Assembly (NCBI GenBank): GCA_016215705.1
Contig: JACRIR010000055.1
Location: forward strand, 1 to 17,303
Source: Candidatus Poribacteria bacterium
GTDB taxonomy: Bacteria; Abyssobacteria; SURF-5
DNA length: 17,303 bases
Direction: 5' to 3'
Position numbers and translations under genes: made by a program. Below are positions 1,799-17,303 of this stretch, piece after piece. The notes under the pieces were generated by a model, which saw only the letters and a program-made list of their open reading frames with translations, had not been told where the DNA came from and did not search any database. How positions within the stretch are numbered: position 1 is the first letter of the stretch; each line of letters begins with the position of its first letter.

Positions 1799-2803
1799 CT
1801 AATCCTTCTCGACCTCTGGCTTTTCCGGCCTCTCGACAGTGGAAGAAGCAGCGCCTTCTACATGTGGTTTTTCGGCCGGTTTTTCTATCTTTTCAGGTTT
1901 TTCAGCCTTGGAAGCAGTGGCGCTTCCAGGCTTCTCGGGTTTCTGGACTTCAGGTTTCTCCGGTTTCTCGAGAGTGGAAGAAGCAGCGCCTTCTACATGC
2001 GGTTTTTCGGCCGGTTTTTCTATCTTTTCAGGTTTTTCAGCCTTGGAAGCAGTGGCGCTTCCGGGTTTCTCCGGTTTTTCCGGCTTCTCGACAGTGGAAG
2101 AAGTAGCGCCTTCTACATGTGGTTTCTCGGCCGGTTTTTCCATCTTCTCAGGTTTTTCAGCCTTAGAGGCCGTGGCGCTTCCAGGTTTCTCCGTTTTTTC
2201 GGGTTTCTGGACTTCAGGTTTCTCCGGTTTTTCCGGCTTCTCGACAGTGGAAGAAGCAGCGCCTTCTACATGCGGTTTTTCAGCCTTTTCAAGCTTCTCA
2301 GGCTTTTCGGAGATGGAGGATGCGCCGCTTTCCGCATGCGGCTTTTCGACTTTCTCAGCCTTTTCAATCTCTCGTTCTTCGATCCTTGCGTCTTCCTTTT
2401 CTGAACCTCCTAGCGCGCTAGCGCTCGGTTGGTCGCCCGTGCGATCCTTGTCACGGTCTCTGTCCCGGTCCCTGTCAGTGGCAAGCTCCTTGGCAAGCAT
2501 CATATCGGTGAGGGCCACAGGCGCAGAAATGGTCGAATCCTTTTCGGGTTTTTCAATCTCGGGTTTCTCCGGAGCCTCAGGGCTGTCTTTCCCTTGTACC
2601 TCGGGGTTTTCCGGCTGTTCGGCCTCGGGTTTCTCAATCTCGGGCTTTTCAGGATTCTCGGCCTCAGGTTTCTCAACCTTTGCTCCATCGGCTGTTGGCT
2701 TCTGGACGCCCGCTGCGGCAGGCGTTGCCATACATGCAAGAGCTATCGCGAGCAATGCCAGAGCCAGGTATTTGCCTATGCTGAGTAACTTTTCTGTTTC
2801 CAT
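1799..2803 (-). CDS. Secreted Pro-Glu-Lys repeat protein
   Basis: Not a family I recognise. I place the start at 2803: AAGGAGAA sits ~7 nt upstream and the product then begins METEKLLSIGKY with a clean Sec signal (core residues 12-25, AAA cleavage near 31). An in-frame ATG 45 nt further upstream lacks this. The 334-residue product has PE/KPE-rich segments (32-90), a short less biased part (91-108), a DRDRDRDRDKDR charged run (110-121), and from ~173 to the end imperfect repeats of about 40-51 residues. Each repeat contains KPHVEGAASST, KPEKPE, KPGSATASKAEKPEK and IEKPAE. The DNA repeat units start near 1838, 1973, 2093 and 2246. The extended, highly charged chain suggests a spacer or periplasm-spanning or surface protein, as with Pro-rich TonB-like linkers, but no anchor domain is visible. 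AC at residues 23-24 is a poor lipobox. Confidence 0.78.
   Translation of the reverse strand: METEKLLSIGKYLALALLAIALACMATPAAAGVQKPTADGAKVEKPEAENPEKPEIEKPEAEQPENPEVQGKDSPEAPEKPEIEKPEKDSTISAPVALTDMMLAKELATDRDRDRDRDKDRTGDQPSASALGGSEKEDARIEEREIEKAEKVEKPHAESGASSISEKPEKLEKAEKPHVEGAASSTVEKPEKPEKPEVQKPEKTEKPGSATASKAEKPEKMEKPAEKPHVEGATSSTVEKPEKPEKPGSATASKAEKPEKIEKPAEKPHVEGAASSTLEKPEKPEVQKPEKPGSATASKAEKPEKIEKPAEKPHVEGAASSTVERPEKPEVEKD
1837..2290. repeat. Intragenic imperfect tandem repeats (120-153 bp units)
   Basis: The plus-strand word GTGGAAGAAGCAGCGCCTTC recurs at about 1840, 1975, 2095 (one base changed) and 2248, followed each time by TACATG(T/C)GGTTT. Period lengths of 135, 120 and 153 bp are all multiples of three, so repeat-number changes would keep the minus-strand protein in frame. 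Confidence 0.85.
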
Positions 2804-2848
2804 CTTTCGGTTCTCCTTTTTTGACATTTTCAACCAAACCAATTTCAA

Positions 2849-5986: not shown

Positions 5987-6021
5987 ATTCCCGCATCATT
6001 TCGACAAACGTGAGGAGTCTT

Positions 6022-6630
6022 ATGAGCAAGTATGGTCGATCCTCCGGAGGGGGAACCGGACTCATTCATATCTATACCGGCGAAGGCAAGGGCAAAACCA
6101 CTTCAGCGCTCGGCATGGCAGTGCGGGCGGTCGGAAACGGGCTCAACGTCATCATGATCCAGTTTCTGAAGACCTCGAACCGCTACGGCGAGCTCAAGGG
6201 CGCGAAGAAACTCACTCCCGGCTTCGAGATAGTTCAAATGGGGCCCGAGTGCGTGCGGCTTCGGAGGGACCCGACAGCCGACAAGGAATGCATCGGCTGC
6301 ATGGAATGCCACGTAGACCGCGAAAACCCGAGGGTTTCGGACCTCGAGGCGGCTCGCCGGGCGCTGGATTTCGCTGAGGATTGCATGTCGAACGGCATGT
6401 ATGACCTCGTCATCCTCGACGAGGTCAATTATGCCGTGAACTTCAATTTGCTCTCTGCCGAAGAGGTAGTTTCCGCTCTGAGGAACAAGAGGGACTCGGT
6501 TGAGGTCGTGCTCACGGGCAGGTCTGCCCATTCGGCTCTCATCGAGATTGCAGACTACGTGACGGAAATGCGGGAGATAAAGCATCCTTGGCGCGGGGGT
6601 GCGACCGCTCGCAAAGGGATCGAATACTAG
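6022..6630 (+). CDS. cobO: Corrinoid adenosyltransferase, CobO/BtuR type
   Basis: The 202-residue product transfers the adenosyl group of ATP to cob(I)alamin or cob(I)yrinate diamide, making the adenosyl form used by mutases and eliminases. It has the family P-loop GEGKGKTT (20-27), IMIQFLK (~44-50), YGELKG, a Walker B-like LVILDEVNYAV (129-139), VVLTGR and the ending YVTEMREIKHPWRGG. The ATG at 6022 follows GAGGAG by 4 nt; a GTG at 6010 is in frame but has no site. Odd: where the family has a plain linker it carries C-I-G-C-M-E-C-H (Cys90, 93, 96, His97) plus Cys77, a ferredoxin- or zinc-like knuckle. Its own promoter suggests independent expression, but it neighbours two B12-dependent radical SAM genes. 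Confidence 0.93.
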   Translation: MSKYGRSSGGGTGLIHIYTGEGKGKTTSALGMAVRAVGNGLNVIMIQFLKTSNRYGELKGAKKLTPGFEIVQMGPECVRLRRDPTADKECIGCMECHVDRENPRVSDLEAARRALDFAEDCMSNGMYDLVILDEVNYAVNFNLLSAEEVVSALRNKRDSVEVVLTGRSAHSALIEIADYVTEMREIKHPWRGGATARKGIEY

Positions 6631-6745: not shown

Positions 6746-7309
6746 ATGCCAGACACCAAAGATCAGATTAAGAATTTCTTCGAGAGTTTTTCGCTGAAGC
6801 AGGTTGTCGTGCTCTTGCTCGAGGAGTATGTCGCGTGGATTTTTCGCTATATCCCGGGCTTCGAGGGCTTCACACTCCGCTACCTCTTCTATAAGCTGCT
6901 CTGCAAGAAGATAGAGCCTTTCCCATTCATCTTCCCCGGCGCCTTTTTCCAGCATTCATACGGTATCGAGGCAGGACGCAACCTCAACGTCAATCGCGGG
7001 GTTCATATGTATGGACGCGGCGGCATAAAGGTCGGCGACTACGTGCTTATAGGTCCGAACGTCGTTATTGCTTCTTCCCAGCATCGCTACAACATTCAGA
7101 AGATTCCCATTATGTTTCAGGGACACGAGAAGAAAGCCGTCGTCATTGGAAACGACGTGTGGATAGGCGCAAACGCCGTGGTTCTGCCCGGAGTAACCAT
7201 CGCGGACGGAACGATCGTCGGCGCGGGGGCGGTCGTCACATCCGACACGGAGCCCTATTCCATCGTCTGTGGCGTGCCCGCCCGGAAAATAGGCGAGCGC
7301 AGTCATTAG
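6746..7309 (+). CDS. Hexapeptide-repeat O-acyltransferase (LbH/WbbJ type)
   Basis: An in-frame TGA at 6737 makes the ATG at 6746 the earliest possible start. No Shine-Dalgarno is visible and the inverted repeat abuts it. The 187-residue product has an N-terminal helical part (1-65) with hydrophobic segments, then a left-handed beta-helix (~71-177) built from [IV]GxxxxI turns: YGIEAGRNLNVNRG, IKVGDYVLIGPNVVI, VVIGNDVWIGANAVVLPGVTI, GTIVGAGAVVTSD. It ends in the typical YSIVCGVPARKIGER. His113 in ASSQHRY is the likely catalytic base. Such enzymes acetylate sugars of surface polysaccharides using acetyl-CoA. Its position ahead of glycosyl- and methyltransferase genes fits this. The hydrophobic N-terminus is longer than in minimal MaaT-type enzymes and may touch the membrane. 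Confidence 0.9.
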   Translation: MPDTKDQIKNFFESFSLKQVVVLLLEEYVAWIFRYIPGFEGFTLRYLFYKLLCKKIEPFPFIFPGAFFQHSYGIEAGRNLNVNRGVHMYGRGGIKVGDYVLIGPNVVIASSQHRYNIQKIPIMFQGHEKKAVVIGNDVWIGANAVVLPGVTIADGTIVGAGAVVTSDTEPYSIVCGVPARKIGERSH

Positions 7310-7322
7310 GATCTTGTGGACA

Positions 7323-7363
7323 GAAATTCGGGGACACGATGCGGCATCGTGTCCCCGAATTTC
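7323..7363. repeat. REP-like perfect hairpin, 19-bp stem
   Basis: GAAATTCGGGGACACGATG (7323-7341) is perfectly complementary to 7345-7363, with a CGG loop. It begins 14 nt after the acyltransferase stop. The core is identical to the hairpin at 767-805 (GGGGACACGATG), while the outer sequence differs (AATTC versus A-run), so the conserved part is the core. Confidence 0.85.
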
Positions 7364-7497
7364 GCGGTAGCGCCGACACAGAGGAGTCTCATCTGCATCG
7401 TGTCCCCGATTTTCGCGGCAATGCCGGCATGGAGGAATCTCAGCAGCAACACGTCCCCGATTTTCCCGGAAATACCAATAGTGAGGGATCTCCCTGT
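7345..7497 (+). repeat. Three-unit 51-bp tandem array of the GTGTCCCCGATTTTC element
   Basis: Units begin at 7345 (CATCGTGTCCCCGAATTTCG), 7396 (CATCGTGTCCCCGATTTTCG) and 7447 (decayed, ..CACGTCCCCGATTTTCCC). The word GTCCCCGA sits at 7351, 7402 and 7453, an exact 51-bp period. The rest of each unit is also related (GCCGACACAGAGGAGTCTC / GCCGGCATGGAGGAATCTC / ACCAATAGTGAGGGATCTC). All three frames stay open across it because 51 is a multiple of three, which creates spurious reading frames with 17-residue repeats. The first unit is also the right arm of the hairpin. Confidence 0.85.
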
Positions 7498-7558
7498 AGT
7501 GAACGAAATTGTGGGACGCAGGACTGAAACTCGGTCGCATAACCTACCGTGAGACCAA

Positions 7559-8995
7559 ATGGCCCGGATCGCCTTTGTCCAGAACATCGCGTTCGAATAC
7601 CTTGGTGTCATGCATCTCTCAGCCGTTTTGAAGAAGGCAGGCCATGAGGTCGAGGTGTTTCTGCTGGAACAAAGCGAGCAATCGCTTGTCCGGCAAGTGT
7701 TGGATTTTGAGCCATCCATAGTCGCCTTCTCCTGCACCACTGGCGTCCATCATTGGGCGATCAGCTTCGCCTCTCTCCTGAAACAGGCGCGACCGACGCT
7801 CACGATATTCGGCGGCCCTCACGCGACGTTCTTCCCGGAATTGATCGAGCAGCCTTCGGTTGACATCATCTGCCGAGGCGAGGGTGAGGAGGCGATTGTC
7901 GAGATCGCCGGCAAGTTGGATGCCGGAGAGCCTCTCGCCGACACCCTGAACTGCCACGTCAGGTCGAACGGACAAATAAAGCGGAACGATTTGCGCCCGC
8001 TCATCGAGGACCTCGACTCGATTCCCGATCCGGACAGGTCTCTCTACAGGTCGAAATACAAGTACCTTCGTAAGAGCGCGGCCGCATTCATGGCCGGGAG
8101 AGGCTGCCCGTTCAGATGTAGTTTCTGTTTCAACCATGCTATGCAGAAGCTTTATGCCGGGCGCGGGCGTTTTGTCAGGCTTCGAAGTCCCGACCGGGTC
8201 ATCAATGAAATCGAGCGCGTAAAATCGCGGTTCAACCTGCGAACGATATACATGCAGGATGACATTTTCGTTTTGAACAAGAAGTGGGTGAAGGAATTCT
8301 CTGACCTGTACGGCGAGCGGATCGGGCTGCCGATGCTCTGCCTCGTGCGCGCCGATCAGGCGGACGAGGATTCGATTGCCGCTCTCAAACGCGCGGGCGT
8401 CAAGAACATATTCTTCGGAATCGAGTCGGGCGACGAAACCTTGCGTAACGAGACTCTTAAGAAAGGAGTCACGGACGCGGATATCCGGCGAACGGCCGCA
8501 CTCCTGCGAAAATATGGAATCCGATTCCGAACGTATAACATGGTGGGTCTTCCGGGCGAAACGCTTCAGCAGGCGTTGAATACTCTCCGCATCAATGCGG
8601 ACATCCGCACAGACTTTCCATGGTGCGCCATATTTCATCCTTTTCCCGGAACGGAATTGGGAGAGATAGCGGCGCGGGCCGGCTTGATGACACGAAGTCC
8701 TGAGGATGCGCCGCCGTCGTTCTTCAAAGAGAGCATACTTCGCCTGCCGCAGTCGAACGAGATTGTGAATTTGCAGAAGCTCTTCTACTACGGGGTCAAG
8801 TTCCCCCGTCTGATTCCCATCATTGAGCGGACAATTTGCTTGAGGCCGAATCCGATATTTGATTTTCTGTTCCTGATCGGCTATGCCGTGAGCCTGTATG
8901 GAAGCGAGAATATGACGTTCGGCGAGATACTCTCGATCGGATTGCGCAACGTGGGCCAGTTCTTCTACGGGAAAAAGGGAGGAAGACGGCCTTGA
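7559..8995 (+). CDS. B12-binding-domain radical SAM protein
   Basis: An in-frame TGA at 7550 leaves the ATG at 7559 as the first start; its ribosome site is weak. The 478-residue product has an N-terminal cobalamin-binding Rossmann domain (~1-135: IVAFSCTTGVHHWAISFA, LTIFGGPHATFFPE, VDIICRGEGEEAIVEIAG). The classical DxHxxG histidine motif is not seen, as in many of these enzymes. The radical SAM barrel follows, with the cluster motif GRGCPFRCSFC (Cys183, Cys187, Cys190), YMQDDIF, KNIFFGIESGDE and YNMVGLPGET. A C-terminal helical part (~390-478) is usual. The class includes methylases of unactivated carbons and BchE-like cyclases; the substrate here is unknown. It overlaps the following methyltransferase by 4 nt, so the two are surely co-translated. 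Confidence 0.93.
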   Translation: MARIAFVQNIAFEYLGVMHLSAVLKKAGHEVEVFLLEQSEQSLVRQVLDFEPSIVAFSCTTGVHHWAISFASLLKQARPTLTIFGGPHATFFPELIEQPSVDIICRGEGEEAIVEIAGKLDAGEPLADTLNCHVRSNGQIKRNDLRPLIEDLDSIPDPDRSLYRSKYKYLRKSAAAFMAGRGCPFRCSFCFNHAMQKLYAGRGRFVRLRSPDRVINEIERVKSRFNLRTIYMQDDIFVLNKKWVKEFSDLYGERIGLPMLCLVRADQADEDSIAALKRAGVKNIFFGIESGDETLRNETLKKGVTDADIRRTAALLRKYGIRFRTYNMVGLPGETLQQALNTLRINADIRTDFPWCAIFHPFPGTELGEIAARAGLMTRSPEDAPPSFFKESILRLPQSNEIVNLQKLFYYGVKFPRLIPIIERTICLRPNPIFDFLFLIGYAVSLYGSENMTFGEILSIGLRNVGQFFYGKKGGRRP

Positions 8996-9882
8996 ATCTC
9001 ATGTGCCCTCTGTGCGGAACCCCGGAACCCGCCCATCTGTATACGAAGAAAGCCTTTACTGTTTTTCGTTGTCCCTCCTGCACGCTTGCATTCACGTGGC
9101 CGCAGCTTTCGGAACAGGCCGGCCGGCGGCTTTATGGCAATACATATTTCGAGAGTTGGGGTATTGACGGCGACCCATCGGTCCGCGAGATGAAGAAGCG
9201 CACATTCGATTTGAGACTGAAAGCAATTGAGAAACACATTCCGCCGGGACGCATCCTCGATGTCGGCTGCGCCACCGGTTTCTTTCTCGAGGCGGCGTCA
9301 GACCGGGGATGGAGCGCGTACGGCGTCGACGTCAATCCTCACGCAGTGGAGCTGGCGCGCAAGCAGTTCGGCGACCGCGTAATTGAGGGCACAATAGATG
9401 ACGCAAGGCTCGGCGGGGAAATGTTTGACGCGATAACGATGTCAGACGCGCTTGAACACGTGCATGATCCCTTCCGGACCCTTTTCCGGGCAAATGAGCT
9501 GTTGAGAAATGGCGGCATCGTGGCTGTAGTCACCCCCAACGTCAGAGGCATTTCTTCAATTCTTCTCGGACGGCGCTGGCCTCATCTGAAGGCAGAGCAT
9601 CAATTCTACTTTTCCCCGCGCACGCTTTCGTATGTGCTTCAAAAGGCCGGATTCCGGGTCCTGAGCGTGCGTCCGGCCCTGAAGGCCTTGAGTCTCAACT
9701 ACATTTATGCGCAGCGAACGGTGACTCGTGTGCCTTTGCTGACTCCCCTCGTCTCTGCGGTTCGGAGAGTGTTGCCTGCTTCAGTCGGCCGAAAACCTCT
9801 CTATTTTCTTGCAGGGGAAATGTTCGCGCTGGCGCAGAAAGAAGGCTCTCCCCGCTTGTCAAACAACTCCAGTATGCTGTAA
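8992..9882 (+). CDS. Zinc-ribbon class I SAM-dependent methyltransferase
   Basis: The TTG at 8992 overlaps the upstream TGA (TTGA) and has GGGAGGAAG 6-7 nt before it, so I prefer it to the ATG at 9001. The 296-residue product begins with a small zinc ribbon, CPLC (Cys5, Cys8) and CPSC (Cys27, Cys30). The Rossmann methyltransferase follows: motif I ILDVGCATGFFLEAA (88-102), acidic loop GVDVNPHAVELAR (111-123), and motif MSDALEHVHDP with the family's EH. The later region (PNVRGISSILLGRRWPHLKAEHQFYFSP) is typical of the Methyltransf_11/23 group that sits in O-antigen and capsule clusters, together with 'FSPxTLxxVLxKAGF'. It probably methylates a sugar or lipid intermediate. Family secure, substrate unknown. 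Confidence 0.93.
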   Translation: MNLMCPLCGTPEPAHLYTKKAFTVFRCPSCTLAFTWPQLSEQAGRRLYGNTYFESWGIDGDPSVREMKKRTFDLRLKAIEKHIPPGRILDVGCATGFFLEAASDRGWSAYGVDVNPHAVELARKQFGDRVIEGTIDDARLGGEMFDAITMSDALEHVHDPFRTLFRANELLRNGGIVAVVTPNVRGISSILLGRRWPHLKAEHQFYFSPRTLSYVLQKAGFRVLSVRPALKALSLNYIYAQRTVTRVPLLTPLVSAVRRVLPASVGRKPLYFLAGEMFALAQKEGSPRLSNNSSML

Positions 9883-9945
9883 ACTGGCGTTGTCGCGGGT
9901 CGGTCATCTTCCGGAAACAGGAAGAGGAAGGTTGGAGCAACACTT

Positions 9946-11166
9946 ATGCTGTCGCTATCAGCAATGAAGTTCATTGACAGCTTTGCGGGCAAGACGCTTT
10001 GCTTTCTGCTGACCCAATTGCGCAAGCTCAGGCGGCGTCCCCCTCTCTCTTATCCCGCGAGCGCACACAAAGCGCTCATTGTCAAATTCTGGGGCATTGG
10101 CAGCATTGTCCTGACGACTCCCGCCCTTGAACGATTGAAGGCGAAGCATCCGGGATGCCGGATCACATTTCTCACGTTCGAGAGCAACCGGCAAGTGTGT
10201 GAGATGATTCCCACCATCGATGAAATCCTGACCATCCGGACAAACGCCGACATTCTCAGTTTCGCGCGAGACACGCTCCATGCGCTTTTTGCCGTCAGGC
10301 GAGAGAAGTTCGATTTTGCGGCCGACTTCGAGTTCTTCACTTGCTTCTCCGCGCTGATGACTTTCCTGAGCGGCGCGAAAGTGAAAGCAGGATTCCACGC
10401 CTGGGAGGCATACAGAGGCGATCTTCACGACATCCGTGTTCCCTTCAATTATTATTGGCACGTGACCGACAACTTTGTGAATCTGGCGACGGGAGAAAGC
10501 AATGCCGCCGCCCCCCGCGCGCTTCCCCGGCTGCTAGTGCCGGAACAAGCGAGGTCGTGGGCGGGGCAACTCATGCGCGAAAATCGCATTGCTCAGGGCG
10601 ACATTTTTATTGTGGTAAATCCCAACGCGGGCGAGCTTGCTCTCGAGCGCAGATGGCCAAAAGAAAAATTCGCCCGACTCATACGCATCCTCGAAGAACA
10701 ACACGACGCTAAGATCATCCTGATCGGCGGCGCTGGTGAAGAGGACTACACTGCGGGCATTCTCCGGGAGGCGGGCACGCGAAACGCGAAGAGTTACGCC
10801 GGGAAGCTCACGGTTCAGCAGTTAGCCGGCGCGCTTTCCTTTGCAACGGTCATAATTACAAATGACAGTGGCCCGTTGCATCTGGCGTGCGGAGTCGGCC
10901 GCCCTGTTGTCGCCTTCTTCGGTCCGGAGACCCCGGTCCTCTATGGCCCCGTGGGAAGCGGGCATCGCATATTTTTCAAGAATCTGAGCTGCAGTCCCTG
11001 CATAAACGTTCACAACGCAAAGACCGCGCGCTGCAGGCACGGACATTCCGACTGCCTTACCCGTATAACCGTCGAGGAAGTTCTCGAGGCGATTCAGCCG
11101 TTTCTCAAACATTCTCCGGCCGGCATCGACCAGCAGCGGTCAGGTGCGGTTGCGCGGGAGAGATGA
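9946..11166 (+). CDS. Glycosyltransferase family 9 (heptosyltransferase-like)
   Basis: A GGAG 8 nt upstream supports the ATG at 9946. The 406-residue product has a ~40-residue basic-hydrophobic N-terminal extension, then the GT-B fold of GT9: KALIVKFWGIGSIVLTTPALERLKAKHP (42-69), the FIVVNPNAGELALERRWPKEKFARLI donor-domain entry (221-246), IILIGGAGEED and TNDSGPLHLACGVGRPVVAFFGPETPVLYGP (305-335), the family's signature. Cysteines 349, 352, 363 and 370 near the C-terminus match the CxPC...C...C seen in many GT9 members. Such enzymes transfer ADP-heptose or related sugars to lipid A-core-like acceptors at the inner membrane. With only one GT9 in view, a classical heptose core is not proven. 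It follows the methyltransferase by 63 nt and converges with the next gene. Confidence 0.93.
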   Translation: MLSLSAMKFIDSFAGKTLCFLLTQLRKLRRRPPLSYPASAHKALIVKFWGIGSIVLTTPALERLKAKHPGCRITFLTFESNRQVCEMIPTIDEILTIRTNADILSFARDTLHALFAVRREKFDFAADFEFFTCFSALMTFLSGAKVKAGFHAWEAYRGDLHDIRVPFNYYWHVTDNFVNLATGESNAAAPRALPRLLVPEQARSWAGQLMRENRIAQGDIFIVVNPNAGELALERRWPKEKFARLIRILEEQHDAKIILIGGAGEEDYTAGILREAGTRNAKSYAGKLTVQQLAGALSFATVIITNDSGPLHLACGVGRPVVAFFGPETPVLYGPVGSGHRIFFKNLSCSPCINVHNAKTARCRHGHSDCLTRITVEEVLEAIQPFLKHSPAGIDQQRSGAVARER

Positions 11167-11182
11167 GATCATTATGGAAAAT

Positions 11183-11211
11183 CGGAAACACGATGCCGCA
11201 TCGCGTCTCCG
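11183..11211. repeat. Degenerate REP-like hairpin between convergent genes
   Basis: CGGAAACACGATG (11183-11195) pairs with CATCGCGTCTCCG (11199-11211) at 11 of 13 positions (the two mismatches are A-C opposed), with a CCG loop. It is a diverged copy of the GGGGACACGATG family and sits exactly in the 55-bp gap between two converging genes, a place where REP elements and bidirectional terminators are usual. Confidence 0.65.
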
Positions 11212-11221
11212 GTCTTCCGTA

Positions 11222-12622
11222 TTAGGCGAGCAGGTTTCGGAATAACGAAATTGCGGCATATGCGTTCTCGCGCAGCTCCTGGAAGGACGAGAGCGAGCGC
11301 AGCCGCTTTGCAAGATATTTGGGTCTCAGATAGTATTTGACTATTGCCTCCGTCCTCAATCGTCTTAACTGTTCGGTGCTGAGGTGGGACGTAGGCATTG
11401 CAATGAACGTTCCGGACTGGTCCATCACTCTAATGTCGGCATTCACGAGTCCCATTGCCACAGCCTGGCTGCGGAGCACGGTGCCGGCCCGGGGCACGAC
11501 GAAATTGAATGAGGCATAGTCACAGTCGAGTTCGCAGGCGAGTTCTATGGTAGCCCGGCAAGTCTCCTCGGTTTCTTCCGGCAACCCCACAATAAAGGTT
11601 CCCACCGTCCGAATCCCCAGTTTCTTGCACAAGCTGAATACTTCGCGGACGTTTTCGATCGTGTAACCTTTCTTATAGTTCACGAGTATCCTGGAGCTTG
11701 CGCTCTCAACTCCAAAGATTATAGTTCGGCACCCCGCGTCTTTCATTCTGACCAAGACGTCTTCGTCGACCACGTCGACGCGCGAATAACATATCCAATT
11801 GAATCTGAAGTTTCTTCCAAGCATCTCCCGGCACAATTCGACGTTGTCAGACCTCTTCGGGCGGAACGTCTGGTCAAGGAAGAATATGTTTGATATCCCG
11901 AGCGACCGGATGAGTGAGAGTTCCTCGAGAATGTTTTTCACCTCCCGGTATCGGTATCCGAGCGTGCTCATGACACAGAATGAACACTTGAAGGGGCAAC
12001 CGAAGTCGGTGAGAACCGTGGCAAACGGGCTGTTCAGGAACGGCAGGCGATATGCCCGATTCATGAACAATTCGTGGCGCGGAATCGGGAGGGCGAATTT
12101 TTCATAGGCGCCTCGCCTGACGGGCAAGACCTTGATGGAGCCACCTTCCCTTACCACCATGTTGTTTGCTGCGCCACCGTCGAGATACGTGACGAGGTCG
12201 TCGCTCGAGAAGTCCAGCAGACCCGCGTCTACAGAAGGGTTCTGGCGCAACAGTTCTTCGCCGCTTTCGAGAAATACGTCGCCGCTGCCGATAAGGATCG
12301 TTTCGGGCAGAAGCTTTCTCAGGCGTTCAAGGAAAACCGAATCCTCGTTCCACGAGACTGCGCCGGCCAGGAAAACTATCACACGAGGGTTTAGTTCCGA
12401 AACTCGACTCAGGCATTTCTCGTCGCTCAGGCGCTCGGCAATGCAATCAATCAGACGGACTTCGTGATTTGCAGCCAGACGTCCGCTCAGCAAGAGCAAG
12501 TCACACGGTGCGAAGAGGTAATTGGTCTTGGAGGTCTTGCTGCAGTAGTAGTCCCTCACGTACAGCCGTTTTCCCGGCAAGTTCAACAGCAGTATTTTCG
12601 ATTTCGGAGGGAGAGGGGTCAT
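11222..12622 (-). CDS. Second B12-binding radical SAM protein
   Basis: The frame extends up to 12742, but I prefer the ATG at 12622 because MTPLPPKSKILLLNLPGKRLYVRDYYC begins right at the usual family N-terminus. This gives 466 residues. The cobalamin-binding part is ~1-165 (FAPCDLLLLSGRLAANHEVRLIDC, VIVFLAGAVSWNED) but more diverged than in the 7559 gene: the usual GGPH is replaced by IGSGDVF and RGEGE by LDFSSDD. The radical SAM core has DFGCPFKCSFC (Cys209, Cys213, Cys216), NIFFLDQTF, TIIFGVESAS and FIVGLPEET. The reaction is unknown. It is transcribed alone on the minus strand and converges with the GT9 gene. A promoter candidate lies at 12764-12793. Confidence 0.92.
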   Translation of the reverse strand: MTPLPPKSKILLLNLPGKRLYVRDYYCSKTSKTNYLFAPCDLLLLSGRLAANHEVRLIDCIAERLSDEKCLSRVSELNPRVIVFLAGAVSWNEDSVFLERLRKLLPETILIGSGDVFLESGEELLRQNPSVDAGLLDFSSDDLVTYLDGGAANNMVVREGGSIKVLPVRRGAYEKFALPIPRHELFMNRAYRLPFLNSPFATVLTDFGCPFKCSFCVMSTLGYRYREVKNILEELSLIRSLGISNIFFLDQTFRPKRSDNVELCREMLGRNFRFNWICYSRVDVVDEDVLVRMKDAGCRTIIFGVESASSRILVNYKKGYTIENVREVFSLCKKLGIRTVGTFIVGLPEETEETCRATIELACELDCDYASFNFVVPRAGTVLRSQAVAMGLVNADIRVMDQSGTFIAMPTSHLSTEQLRRLRTEAIVKYYLRPKYLAKRLRSLSSFQELRENAYAAISLFRNLLA

Positions 12623-12763
12623 GTTTTCCACGACTTTTTGTTGTACTAAACCAACCTCAATATACGCGAATCGTCCCAGACGGATGGTTGCGCGCTCAAA
12701 CGACCGGCGAGGAAGAAAAGGCGTTAACGAATAGACATCCAACTTCGTTACGCTGCTGACTGT

Positions 12764-12793
12764 ATGGTATCATCGGCTTAGATTGACTGTCAA
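12764..12793 (-). promoter_or_regulatory. Candidate promoter of the minus-strand radical SAM gene
   Basis: On the minus strand, TTGACA (12793-12788) is followed after 18 bp by TACCAT (12769-12764). The -35 box lies within a perfect 13-bp palindrome ATTGACTGTCAAT (12782-12794), which could also be an operator. The -10 match is only 4 of 6. Confidence 0.4.
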
Positions 12794-12804
12794 TTCCTTG
12801 GATA

Positions 12805-12862
12805 TGAGATTCTTCGCTCCGCTCAGAATGACAGGAGCCTTTTCAGAATGACAGGAGCCTTT
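12805..12862. repeat. Interspersed repeat remnant with 20-bp tandem duplication
   Basis: GAGATTCTTCGCTCCGCTCAG followed by AATGACA is a very common short interspersed bacterial repeat. Here its end is duplicated: TCAGAATGACAGGAGCCTTT occurs at 12823-12842 and again, identical, at 12843-12862. Confidence 0.75.
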
Positions 12863-12863
12863 A

Positions 12864-12893
12864 TTGACAGAAAACGCCTATGGCCGGTAATAT
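12864..12893 (+). promoter_or_regulatory. Candidate promoter of the membrane protein gene
   Basis: A perfect TTGACA (12864-12869) and TAATAT (12888-12893), with an 18-bp spacer, lie just before the ATG at 12902. The predicted transcript start falls at about 12900, almost on the start codon, and no Shine-Dalgarno is visible, so a leaderless mRNA is possible. Confidence 0.4.
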
Positions 12894-12901
12894 AAACGAT
12901 A

Positions 12902-13393
12902 ATGAAACCGAGGGAGGCAATAGAGTCCAGCGCATCAAATGGCAATTGGGTTTGGTCCACCGTTGTTGCGTTTTCGTGGCTCGCATACGGGGCAGCCCTA
13001 TATTTCATGTTGGTTGAAACAGGCTGCATTCACTTTGCTTATCGGCCGAACGAAATCGGTGTTATAAGCCCTACCACGATAGCTCGAATCCCAAAGATAG
13101 CGCGCACATTCCATTTCGTGGCTGGAACCGGTTTGTCGGCATTAATGGCCGTTTGCGGTTGGTGGTTGTGGGTGAGCTTCTGCGCCTTCCTTTCGCGTCA
13201 GTCCGGCCGCGACCTTCAAGGAATTCTCCCGAACGACGCTTTGGTCAATGTGGTATTGTTGATTGCTTTTGCCGATATTGTGTACAAGTTCACGCCCTAC
13301 AAGATTGCGGCGATTCTTGGCCTCGTAGTGCTAGCGACATGGAGACTCTCGTTTTTCCTTTATGCCCGAAAAAAGACCACAGTCCACGTCTAA
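12902..13393 (+). CDS. Four-helix integral membrane protein, unknown function
   Basis: Not recognised. The 163-residue product has four predicted transmembrane segments (~17-42, ~69-96, ~112-129, ~132-154) and a charged C-terminal RKKTTVHV. Between helices 1 and 2 is a polar loop with YRPNEIGVISPTTIARIPKIAR. An in-frame TAA at 12893 fixes the ATG at 12902 as the earliest start. The gene overlaps the following glycosyltransferase by 32 nt, so translation is probably coupled and the protein may serve the same surface pathway, for example as a small partner of the polytopic enzyme. Function cannot be stated. Reality is supported by hydrophobic periodicity, the absence of stops and the coupling. 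Confidence 0.75.
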   Translation: MKPREAIESSASNGNWVWSTVVAFSWLAYGAALYFMLVETGCIHFAYRPNEIGVISPTTIARIPKIARTFHFVAGTGLSALMAVCGWWLWVSFCAFLSRQSGRDLQGILPNDALVNVVLLIAFADIVYKFTPYKIAAILGLVVLATWRLSFFLYARKKTTVHV

Positions 13394-15512
13394 CGCATTC
13401 CGGCGACTCCTCCGGGCGATAGACTTTGCAGTAATCCCTCTTTTGCTGACAGCCTTGCGGATCGATCCTGTTTACTTCGTCTATCTGCGCTGGCCCGAAG
13501 CGGAGAAGTTGTTCTGCGAGACAGGCTATCGCTTCTTGGGAGAGATCGGCCAGTTTCTCGCGTGGGCAAACGCTGCGTATCACGGCGAGTGGCATGGCCG
13601 CGATTTCTTCTGCCTTTACGGGCCGCTGTACATCTATTCGATAGTGGCCACGTGGAAAATCGCGGGCAAATCGGTCCAGGCGCTATTTGCATACTGGCAC
13701 ATCATGAGCGCGCTGACCTGCATCGCGGCCTACGCTTTCTTTCGGCAGTTCTGGTCACGCCGTGTCCTGTGCGTTGTTGCCGCGCTTGCGCTCACGTTTA
13801 CGACGATTCTCGAGTATCCTGTCTCCGCGTGCCGGTTCACTGCAGCTCTCGGCGCGCTGGCGTTGCTTGCTGCCCACGCACGCGGGATTCGAGGGCTTCT
13901 GATTCCGGCCGGCATTCTTGTTGGGCTCGCGGTAATGACCAGCCAGGAGGTTGGCATAGCCGTGCTTGCGGCCTCCTTTGTGTTCCTTATTTGTGGTGAC
14001 ATAGGCAGGGGCCTTCGGAGAATGAGCGGAAGAATTGGCTTTTTTGCCCTTGGCTTTGCAGCGGCCGCCGCGCCCGCCGCCCTGGTCTTCCACTTGAATG
14101 GCGCCCTTTGGCCCATGGTGCAAAACGTCATAGAGTATCCCTCGGCCGTCAATCTCGGCTATGGAAATTATCCTTTCCCGCGAGTGGATTCCGTACTCCC
14201 CCTGAACCTCACGGGCGCCCCGCCCGGGGCTCTTCTTGTAAGGGCGGGGGTTCCGTCAACCATGCTCTTCTATTATGCGCCGTCGCTTTACGCCGTGTCC
14301 CTGGTCTATCTGTTTATCCGTCTCGTGCTTGGCCGATGGAAGTTGGATACCTTTGACAGCATGGTTGCCGCTTTGACAGCAGCCGGGATCATGCTGTTCG
14401 GTGTAGCGCTCGGAAGAAGCGATTACGCGCACCTGATTTTTGCTCTTCCGCCGGCCGTGTTGCTGCACCTCCTCTTCATAGGACACGTGACAAGAATATT
14501 ATATGCAAAGATGTCCTTGCGGCGGACAGTGAGTGTCCGCCGGAGTGAGCTTGCCGCCTGTTCCGTGATCCTGGTTGTCTCCATTTCGTTCTTCAATCCT
14601 TCTCTGATGCTCAAGAAAACCGTCTCATCTGCAACAGGCAATTTTGAGAAAATGATACTCGCCTTCAGGCTTCCGAAACCTCCACCCGAATTTCAGGGGC
14701 CGCCGTACATGGAAGTGGTCGACTACATCAAGCAGAATACGACTCCACGGGACTACGTTCTGGCGCTTCCAAGCAATTCCGCCTACTACTATTTTGTGGA
14801 CAGAGAAAACCCGACCCGCTTCTGCCAATTCTCGATGCTGGCAACGAACAAACACCGCGCAGAAGTTCTGGAAGATATTCGCGAACGGCGTCCGAAGTAT
14901 GTGATTTATGACATTACCGGCGAGAGAGTCGATGACATAAGCGACGAAGTCCAATTTCGCGATGCGCTCGACTTCATCCTGCAAAATTATGTAGCCGTAA
15001 AAAGAGTCGGCAATACGCTGCTTTTGTTGGATGGTGGGCGCATCCCCAACCGGCAGTCATCCGAGACGACAATATTCGACCGGGATTTGACACGGCCGGA
15101 AAATGTTCGTCAGATGGGACTGAGGGGTGCGCGCGTTGTGGACGTAACGGGCGCAGGATCATGTATTTCGCTTGAGATTCCGCAGTCAGAACTCGAGTTG
15201 CAGAATATGGGACTCGATTCCAGAGAGTTCTATCTTCTGCGCATAGCCGCAAGTATAGAGAAGGGCAATATCGGCCGGGTTTCCTGGGCTGTCAAAGGAA
15301 TCGGCAAGCGAAGAGTCTATTCGAAGATGCTTTGCGTGGCAATGGACGGTGAGTGGGAAACATACGAAGCGCTCATTGCGACACCAGAACCTTCGGGCGT
15401 GGTGGAGTCCCTTAAGCTGATCCCTTCCGACGAGCCGACGCGAATAACCATCCGGAGCATCAAGCTTACCCGGCTCAATAACCTTTCCTTGCCGACCCAT
15501 CTTCCATACTGA
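13362..15512 (+). CDS. Polytopic GT-C-like membrane glycosyltransferase with large C-terminal domain
   Basis: The 716-residue product carries about ten hydrophobic helices in 20-412 (for example ~108-127, ~133-150, ~177-211, ~223-244, ~301-324, ~333-350, ~355-377, ~395-411). A first-loop motif, EWHGRDFFCLYGPLYIY (76-92, Asp81), is of the kind carried by lipid-linked-sugar GT-C enzymes (PMT/ArnT/GT39-like), and GRSDYAHLIFALPP (351-364) is also seen in such proteins. From ~430 to 716 comes a soluble part. Its first half (MEVVDYIKQNTTPRDYVLALPSN, then KYVIYDIT) is the usual periplasmic extension. The last ~170 residues (GGRIPNR... to the end) look like a beta-rich, carbohydrate-binding-like domain. 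It probably moves a sugar from polyprenyl phosphate to a glycan, lipid or protein outside the membrane. No ribosome site; translation is likely coupled to the overlapping upstream gene. Confidence 0.82.
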   Translation: MPEKRPQSTSNAFRRLLRAIDFAVIPLLLTALRIDPVYFVYLRWPEAEKLFCETGYRFLGEIGQFLAWANAAYHGEWHGRDFFCLYGPLYIYSIVATWKIAGKSVQALFAYWHIMSALTCIAAYAFFRQFWSRRVLCVVAALALTFTTILEYPVSACRFTAALGALALLAAHARGIRGLLIPAGILVGLAVMTSQEVGIAVLAASFVFLICGDIGRGLRRMSGRIGFFALGFAAAAAPAALVFHLNGALWPMVQNVIEYPSAVNLGYGNYPFPRVDSVLPLNLTGAPPGALLVRAGVPSTMLFYYAPSLYAVSLVYLFIRLVLGRWKLDTFDSMVAALTAAGIMLFGVALGRSDYAHLIFALPPAVLLHLLFIGHVTRILYAKMSLRRTVSVRRSELAACSVILVVSISFFNPSLMLKKTVSSATGNFEKMILAFRLPKPPPEFQGPPYMEVVDYIKQNTTPRDYVLALPSNSAYYYFVDRENPTRFCQFSMLATNKHRAEVLEDIRERRPKYVIYDITGERVDDISDEVQFRDALDFILQNYVAVKRVGNTLLLLDGGRIPNRQSSETTIFDRDLTRPENVRQMGLRGARVVDVTGAGSCISLEIPQSELELQNMGLDSREFYLLRIAASIEKGNIGRVSWAVKGIGKRRVYSKMLCVAMDGEWETYEALIATPEPSGVVESLKLIPSDEPTRITIRSIKLTRLNNLSLPTHLPY

Positions 15513-15519
15513 AGGTCAA

Positions 15520-15548
15520 TTGACGGAGACTCGCGCCTAAGCTATAAT
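15520..15548 (+). promoter_or_regulatory. Near-consensus sigma-70 promoter of the ABC exporter
   Basis: TTGACG (15520-15525), a 17-bp spacer and a perfect TATAAT (15543-15548) lie 68 bp upstream of the ATG at 15616. It is the strongest promoter in the window and separates the exporter from the glycosyltransferase gene transcriptionally. Confidence 0.8.
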
Positions 15549-15615
15549 AGCTGTAATTTCGATAAGCCTTGTCCCTTGCCGCCCTCCGTTCCCGAAGTGA
15601 ATACTAGACTGCGGA

Positions 15616-17303
15616 ATGATTGACGACCTTCGATCTCTTAAGCCATATGTTCGCAAGTACTTCGGCGCTTATGCGCTCGGATGCGTGTGTCTTGTGGCCT
15701 CGAACGGACTCGCTCTCGTCATCCCATGGCTAACCAAGCAGACAATCGAGCATTTGCAGCGCGTCAGGGCGTCTGAAGGGCTGGGGAAGCCCCACTTTTA
15801 CGCGCTTCTCATCTTTGTGGTGGCGATTGTCCAGATGACGATTCGCATCGGGTCCCGCTGGTATCTTCTCGGTAACAGTCGCAAGGTGGCTCGCGACATG
15901 CGGGACGCTTTGTTTGCGCACTTGCAGACGCTTTCGCCTTCTTACTACGTTCGGACGCCGACGGGCGACCTGATGTCGCGCTTGATGAACGACATGCAAT
16001 ACGTCCAGAGCCTCGTTGGGCCGGTTATCCTGTACGTCACGAATACGGTCGTCCTGTACCTGGGCGCGATCCCAATCATGCTCTACATGAACAGCGAGCT
16101 TACGCTTCTCGCGCTCATTCCGTACCCGATTCTGATAGTTACGTTCAAGTGGTTTGCTTCGATCCTCTTTACCCGTTCGAGAAAGGTGCAGGATCAACTT
16201 GGGGACCTGAGCGCGCGGGCACAGGAGACCATATCGGGAATCCAGATCATAAAGGCTTATGTGCAGGAGGAAAACGAGGCGAAACACTTTCGGAAACTGA
16301 GCAAAGACTATCTCGGCAGCAACTTGAACCTGATGCGGGTCGATAGTCTGTTCATTCCCATGATAACGTGCGTGAGCGCCGTTGGGATGCTGGTTGTCAT
16401 CTGGGTCGGCGGGACCCAGGTTATAGCCGGACGGATAACTCTCGGCGAGTTCGTGGCTTTCAGCGGATACCTCACAATCCTTGCAATGCCGACGGCATTC
16501 CTTGGCATGATTATCAGCGCATCGCAGAGAGGGCTTTCGTCTCTGAGGCGTATAAACGAGGTGTTCAGCCAGCGGCCCTCCATCGTCGATGGTCCTTCCA
16601 CCCGTGCTTTCAACATCGAACGCGGCGAGATTGAGATAAGAAACCTCTCGTTCACTTATCCCTCTCTGAACAACGAGGCAAATCACAGGTTCGCGCTCAG
16701 GAATATCAACCTTAGTATTCCGGCCGGCACGACGCTTGCCATTGTCGGTCACACCGGCTCGGGCAAGACCACCCTGATCAACCTTATCTCTCGTCTACTT
16801 GAAGTCGAACCGGGCAAGATATTCATTGACGGTCGGGATATTACCACAGTCCCGCTGGCCGAAGTCAGGCGCAAGATAGCGCTCGTTCCGCAGGAGAGCT
16901 TTCTTTTCTCGGTTACTCTCCGCGAGAACATTTCCTTCGGCGCACATGACAGCGAGGCGGGCGACGAGGAAGCCGCCGCCGGCACGGCGGGTCTGATGCC
17001 CGACGTCGAGACATTCCCGAAAGGGTTCGATACCATCATCGGCGAGCGCGGCGTCAATCTTTCCGGCGGCCAGCGACAGAGGACAGCGCTTGCCCGCGCG
17101 CTCGTTTCCGATCCTCGCGTTCTTATTCTCGATGACGCCTTTTCGAGTGTGGACACGCACACAGAGGAACAGATATTGAGGAATCTCGAGAGCGTGCTCG
17201 AGCGGCGCACGGCCATCATGATATCGCATCGCGTGTCGACCGTCCGGTACGCGGATAAGATAGTGGTGCTGGAAGAAGGCCGGATCGCCGAGGAAGGCAC
17301 GCA
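15616..17303 (+). CDS. ABC exporter half-transporter, MdlA/YheI/MsbA-like (3' end outside window)
   Basis: The frame starts at ATG 15616 (in-frame TGA at 15598) and is open to the window edge, giving 562 residues. An N-terminal exporter membrane domain (~1-310: PTGDLMSRLMNDMQYVQSLVG, then ISGIQIIKAYVQEE, the usual coupling helix) is followed by a complete nucleotide-binding core. This has Walker A GHTGSGKTT (378-386), the Q-loop VPQESFLFS (Gln426), signature LSGGQ (482-486), Walker B VLILDDAFSSVD and the switch ISHRVS (His538). The catalytic carboxylate is Asp507, not Glu, as in the degenerate-site subunit of heterodimeric exporters such as BmrC, MdlA or TM287. The LEEGRI ending also resembles YheI. 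A partner half-transporter is therefore expected downstream. Substrate unknown; the neighbourhood suggests a lipid or glycolipid. Confidence 0.93.
   Translation, partial: MIDDLRSLKPYVRKYFGAYALGCVCLVASNGLALVIPWLTKQTIEHLQRVRASEGLGKPHFYALLIFVVAIVQMTIRIGSRWYLLGNSRKVARDMRDALFAHLQTLSPSYYVRTPTGDLMSRLMNDMQYVQSLVGPVILYVTNTVVLYLGAIPIMLYMNSELTLLALIPYPILIVTFKWFASILFTRSRKVQDQLGDLSARAQETISGIQIIKAYVQEENEAKHFRKLSKDYLGSNLNLMRVDSLFIPMITCVSAVGMLVVIWVGGTQVIAGRITLGEFVAFSGYLTILAMPTAFLGMIISASQRGLSSLRRINEVFSQRPSIVDGPSTRAFNIERGEIEIRNLSFTYPSLNNEANHRFALRNINLSIPAGTTLAIVGHTGSGKTTLINLISRLLEVEPGKIFIDGRDITTVPLAEVRRKIALVPQESFLFSVTLRENISFGAHDSEAGDEEAAAGTAGLMPDVETFPKGFDTIIGERGVNLSGGQRQRTALARALVSDPRVLILDDAFSSVDTHTEEQILRNLESVLERRTAIMISHRVSTVRYADKIVVLEEGRIAEEGT

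Follow-up and report, generated by a model that had tools for sequence, protein, structure and literature searches.

A core of six genes was found in the window (the whole stretch of DNA analysed, which is one entire contig of 17,303 bases), and this core probably represents a conserved module for the tailoring of a cell-envelope glycan or glycolipid. The genome to which the window belongs (G000) comprises 5.47 Mb in 270 contigs and is 92% complete. The core includes two radical SAM enzymes, designated rSAM1 and rSAM2, a methyltransferase (MT), a GT9 glycosyltransferase, a small membrane protein (4-TM) and a GT-C membrane glycosyltransferase. Uncultured bacteria are rich in radical SAM enzymes, but the substrate is known for only a few of these. 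Where two such enzymes recur beside defined glycosyltransferases in a small set, the class of substrate is indicated and the pairing can be tested; the module also directs attention to envelope sugars that would go unnoticed in standard annotation. A literature search found no paper linking B12-radical SAM enzymes to a glycan cluster of this kind.

Gene content and organisation of the locus

The first-pass annotation had listed eight open reading frames between positions 6746 and 17303, and all of them were found in the order claimed. Pfam and NCBIfam models agree with the families it had named for the hexapeptide acyltransferase, rSAM1, the methyltransferase (Methyltransf_23), GT9, the radical SAM enzyme rSAM2 and the MsbA-like ABC protein. 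The features are as follows.

6746..7309, plus strand: hexapeptide acyltransferase, 187 aa (PF00132, E 4e-16); a neighbour, probably not core
7559..8995, plus strand: rSAM1, 478 aa (PF02310, E 2e-20; PF04055, E 8e-22); core
8992..9882, plus strand: zinc-ribbon class I SAM methyltransferase (MT), 296 aa (PF13489, E 4e-28); core
9946..11166, plus strand: GT9 glycosyltransferase, heptosyltransferase-like, 406 aa (PF01075, E 1e-27); core
11177..11220, strand not assigned: REP-like palindrome or terminator-like stem between the convergent GT9 and rSAM2 genes
11222..12622, minus strand: rSAM2, 466 aa from the likely ATG (PF04055, E 7e-21); core
12902..13393, plus strand: orphan membrane protein 4-TM, 163 aa, four TM segments; core
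13362..15512, plus strand: GT-C membrane glycosyltransferase of PMT/ArnT/OST type, 716 aa (from structure comparison); core
15616..17303, plus strand: MsbA-like ABC half-exporter, incomplete at the contig end (PF00664, E 2e-48; PF00005, E 3e-31); a neighbour

The reading frame of the ABC half-exporter runs past the contig end at 17303, and a comparison of the last 154 bases with other contig ends gave no match for a rightward extension. Nucleotide-sugar genes were not recognised within the window. A B12-related gene, encoding an ATP:corrinoid adenosyltransferase, lies directly upstream of the acyltransferase gene (6010-6630, plus strand); to our knowledge, radical SAM enzymes of the rSAM1 and rSAM2 kind do not use adenosylcobalamin. 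The region 1799-2848 (minus strand) encodes a low-complexity secreted protein in which EKPEKPE repeats are abundant; at the DNA level, a unit of about 156 bases is present there three times.

The start of the MT gene overlaps the stop of rSAM1 by four bases, GT9 is located downstream, and the rSAM2 gene runs towards GT9 from the opposite strand. The intergenic region separating rSAM2 from 4-TM contains promoter-like sites, as does the stretch upstream of the ABC gene (15520-15548), and a terminator-like palindrome lies between GT9 and rSAM2, all of these being consensus matches only. Judging by the sequence, these genes are predicted to form at least three transcription units and no single operon, with the ABC half-exporter probably constituting a separate unit. 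REP-like palindromes built on CATCGTGTCCCC occur at 765-857, 7322-7496 and 11176-11217. The window contains ten near-matches to this palindrome against 1.4 expected, and among the loci compared its exact form is present in the window (L002) only. The gap between rSAM2 and 4-TM also contains a perfect tandem duplicate of TCAGAATGACAGGAGCCTTT (12823-12862).

Conservation of the core in other genomes

All six core genes are found within about 10 kb in a genome of another genus of the same family (G002), where the encoded proteins share 71% (rSAM1), 60% (MT), 66% (GT9), 65% (rSAM2), 44% (4-TM) and 55% (GT-C) identity with those of the window, and where an additional PMT-type GT-C is located between rSAM1 and rSAM2. 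The host phylum is represented in the panel by three genomes of this single family (G000, G001 and G002), and no close homologues of rSAM1 or rSAM2 were found in the third of them, G001. In two families other than that of the host, a large part of the set is retained. The gene order in G043 is GT9, MT (37% identity), rSAM1, a membrane protein of 512 residues, 4-TM and GT-C. G188 has a row of GT9, rSAM1, a 541-residue homologue of the same membrane protein, 4-TM and GT-C, and its MT homologues lie beyond GT-C or far upstream, with none between GT9 and rSAM1. The rSAM1 homologues in the module loci show 71, 52, 50 and 48% identity.

Further loci contain smaller portions of the set. G286 has GT9, rSAM1, MT and an rSAM2 (46% identity) that is truncated by the contig end, and in G078 and G220 adjacent rSAM1 and rSAM2 genes are followed by homologous PMT-type membrane proteins. 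The two radical SAM genes are also neighbours in at least two named MAGs of other phyla among the matches listed: a Flavobacteriales MAG (L077) with GT9, rSAM1 and rSAM2, and a Nitrospirae MAG (L080) with rSAM2, a GDSL protein, GT9 and rSAM1, preceded upstream by two polytopic TPR proteins. A second pair, consisting of an rSAM1-like enzyme and a partner radical SAM enzyme and accompanied by a protein of 560-570 aa, is common to G078 and G220 (L069:5362-9953 and L164:6882-11461). In a marine-biofilm bacterium, an unbroken run of seven radical SAM genes is followed by GT9 (L107:1-10319).

The first-pass annotation had counted the acyltransferase and the ABC exporter as part of the set. No homologues of either were found at the loci of G002, G043, G188, G078 and G220; both were therefore rejected as core genes, and the core is taken to be the remaining six.

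The panel used for the neighbourhood comparison included 386 genomes, with homologue cut-offs of E <= 1e-100 for rSAM1 and E <= 1e-95 for rSAM2. Homologues of rSAM1 are present in 23 genomes, those of rSAM2 in 20 and both in eight; the two genes are neighbours in four of the eight and lie on separate contigs in G035, G105, G180 and G314. Assuming uniform placement, the probability of this arrangement is 1.6e-5 without G000 and 0.0011 without the host family. Under a stricter null, every rSAM1 gene is taken to adjoin a random radical SAM gene of its genome; this null gives P 0.014 without G000 and loses its force when the host family (G000 and G002) is dropped (P 0.08). Both nulls are approximate and do not cover G286, L077 and L080. 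It had been suggested earlier that a scatter of the homologues in related genomes would mean a chance grouping; G002 has the six core genes side by side and two further families keep part of this arrangement, and the neighbourhood comparison thus favours the grouping. The gene grouping is not chance.

A cohesive grouping can also be explained without a single pathway, if the glycan islands of genomes rich in radical SAM enzymes loosely gather such enzymes and glycosyltransferases, and shared descent together with island shuffling accounts for the cohesion. Genomes of the host phylum each contain about 30 radical SAM candidates (about 30 in G000 alone), other radical SAM partners and long radical SAM runs exist elsewhere (L107), the pair is split between contigs in the four genomes named above, and the stricter null without the host family fits this explanation as well. 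However, the identical six genes persist in another genus at an identity of only 44-71%, GT9, rSAM1, 4-TM and GT-C are retained in two other families, and the uniform-placement probability without G000 is low, so loose recruitment is considered unlikely.

Radical SAM enzymes and methyltransferase

The rSAM1 protein contains a B12-binding domain (PF02310) and a radical SAM domain (PF04055), which score 73.0 and 78.6 bits, both over the cut-off. Its CX3CX2C motif is located at residues 183-190, the cysteines are invariant in the alignment, and the protein also carries a GGPHATFFP motif. C-methylation is the commonest chemistry among cobalamin radical SAM enzymes of this kind. In the adjacent MT, the zinc-ribbon cysteines C5, C8, C27 and C30 are unchanged across six aligned sequences. 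Beyond the close homologues, the wider rSAM1 family occurs in varied contexts and is more promiscuous, a GT-C-sized membrane protein being found at most three genes away in just 10 of 27 members.

The rSAM2 reading frame opens with TTG at 12742, and an alternative ATG is present at 12622. The latter appears to be the likelier start, because the related sequences align only from about residue 40-48. The N-terminal domain of rSAM2 matches PF02310 below the cut-off (E 0.0041; 17.4 bits against 32.1), and a trace of this domain was seen in three of six members of the rSAM2 family. A profile comparison aligned rSAM1 and rSAM2 over most of their length, including the N-terminal part, and it seems therefore that the B12 domain of rSAM2 is present but degenerate; the structural model of rSAM2 keeps the fold of this region. 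Both enzymes had been described as B12-binding in the first-pass annotation. This label is secure for rSAM1 only, since the PF02310 score of rSAM2 is under the cut-off. The phylogenetic tree placed the rSAM2 set in one clade with a support of 100, separate from rSAM1.

The closest fold to the rSAM2 model (pLDDT 76) is AprD4, with a VIA Z of 33.5 over 416 residues at 23% identity, followed at a clear distance by MgmA (26.6) and TsrM (25.8). The cluster motif of rSAM2 is CX3CX2C, not the CX3CX3C of AprD4, and the score with the AprD4 model NF033070 is 105.4 against a cut-off of 500. The modelled structure suggests that rSAM2 resembles AprD4, yet the protein is not assignable to the AprD4 family. 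The likeness, and the ABC half-exporter adjoining the set, could be taken to mean that the locus makes a secreted aminoglycoside-like small molecule, with rSAM2 as the diol dehydratase and the ABC transporter as the exporter. Such a product is very improbable, given the different cluster motif, the lack of a recognised AprD3-like reductase, aminotransferase or scaffold gene, an ABC gene that is not conserved with the core set, and a GT-C enzyme with a CBM-like domain, as would be expected for membrane glycans.

Among the NCBIfam models, TIGR03471 (HpnJ) fits both radical SAM enzymes best, the two scores being 142.3 and 173.1 against a cut-off of 577.6. The analogy with HpnP and BchE drawn earlier is weak, and the HpnJ and AprD4 models and structures fit better. 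An HpnJ-like action of rSAM2 or rSAM1 on a hopanoid glycoside would agree with this choice of model, but the scores are far under the cut-off. In addition, SQHop_cyclase was not matched in G001, G043, G078, G188, G220 and G286, and only weak partial matches were found in G000 and G002. A squalene-hopene cyclase is thus not convincing in any of these eight genomes, which is evidence against hopanoids. A hopanoid substrate, rejected on both grounds, seems extremely improbable.

Glycosyltransferases and the 4-TM protein

The GT9 protein scores 122.6 bits with TIGR02195 (lipopolysaccharide heptosyltransferase II), under the cut-off of 134.6. It is encoded beside or near rSAM1 in G002, G043, G188, G286, L077 and L080. 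GT9 enzymes usually act on LPS.

The GT-C protein has no significant Pfam match (PMT_2, E 0.011), and no significant match was found when its sequence was searched against PDB chains. Its structural model is a moderate one (pLDDT 57, pTM 0.52); the top Foldseek/VIA matches are GT-C enzymes (Pmt1/2, Pmt4, AglB, OST, EmbC and ArnT), AftA also matches, and the structural alignments with known GT-C enzymes show 8-15% identity. The earlier assignment to the GT-C enzymes is consequently backed, as regards the membrane fold, by structure comparison. The C-terminal part, at about residues 569-705, matches carbohydrate-binding (CBM-like) jelly rolls. Homologues of GT-C share 55% identity in G002 and 24-25% in G043 and G188.

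The 4-TM protein matched no Pfam or NCBIfam family. Its homologues were found only in the module genomes G002 and G043 among 98 genomes searched, and also at the G188 locus. What had been called an orphan four-helix protein is a membrane protein with four TM segments, whose homologues, among those 98 genomes, are confined to module-bearing ones. The overlap of the 4-TM and GT-C reading frames recurs in G000, G002, G043 and G188.

Since GT-C is structurally most similar to Pmt1/2, Pmt4, AglB and OST, it can be supposed that GT-C and 4-TM glycosylate secreted proteins in a PMT/OST-like manner and that the radical SAM enzymes modify a protein-linked sugar. However, ArnT, EmbC and AftA, with lipid A or glycan acceptors, match too, the Z of a model with pLDDT 57 cannot separate acceptors, and LPS is the usual substrate of GT9 enzymes. 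Protein glycosylation seems distinctly unlikely.

Proposed function of the module

The product class named in the first-pass annotation, a surface glycan or lipid, fits the GT9 protein, the GT-C fold with its CBM-like domain and the hosts: LpxC is present in seven of the eight genomes checked, and lipid A is therefore likely. The analysis shows which genes form the set and how far they are conserved, the predicted GT-C fold and AprD4-like fold, and LpxC in most hosts; we infer the remainder of the scheme, namely the substrate, the product, the order of the steps, the chemistries and the partnership of 4-TM with GT-C. GT9 would add a sugar to a lipid-linked acceptor at the cytoplasmic face. The rSAM1 enzyme, with cobalamin, might then perform a hard radical step, C-methylation or a similar one, and rSAM2, as an enzyme of the AprD4/HpnJ type, might follow with another radical reaction of the sugar that probably needs no B12, resulting in dehydration or deoxygenation or in a ring change. 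The zinc-ribbon MT would cap a hydroxyl or an amine. After flipping, GT-C, with 4-TM as a putative partner, would add another sugar from a polyprenyl-phosphate donor on the periplasmic side, and its CBM-like domain may hold the glycan.

The envelope tailoring module as such is probable, and the specific chemistry proposed for rSAM1 plus rSAM2 is doubtful. Successive action of rSAM1 and rSAM2 on one envelope sugar would yield a sugar with a carbon branch that is also deoxygenated or altered in its ring, of a kind undescribed in bacterial envelopes, to be extended by GT-C and 4-TM; this outcome is a speculative one and on balance quite unlikely.

Comparison with known systems

In the HpnI/HpnK/HpnJ set, HpnJ participates in the formation of the hopanoid cyclitol ether, as a radical SAM enzyme whose substrate is a lipid already glycosylated by a glycosyltransferase (PMC12583986). 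Of the curated models, that of HpnJ fits rSAM1 and rSAM2 best, but both score far below its cut-off, the window has GT9 and GT-C in place of HpnI and no recognised HpnK deacetylase, and the host genomes contain no convincing squalene-hopene cyclase. The GT9 protein is similar to heptosyltransferase II (RfaF/WaaF), although its TIGR02195 score is under the cut-off. The GT-C protein differs from ArnT, PMT, AglB and EmbC in sequence, with 8-15% identity and no significant match to PDB chains, but shares with them the multi-span GT-C fold and the C-terminal CBM-like jelly roll. AprD4 is the radical SAM 1,2-diol dehydratase of apramycin synthesis and works with the reductase AprD3 (PMC5461906; PDB 6fd2). 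An AprD3-like reductase was not recognised in the window, and rSAM2 differs from AprD4 in its cluster motif; nevertheless, AprD4 is the closest solved fold to rSAM2 and resembles it in the two-domain layout and, presumably, in acting on a sugar.
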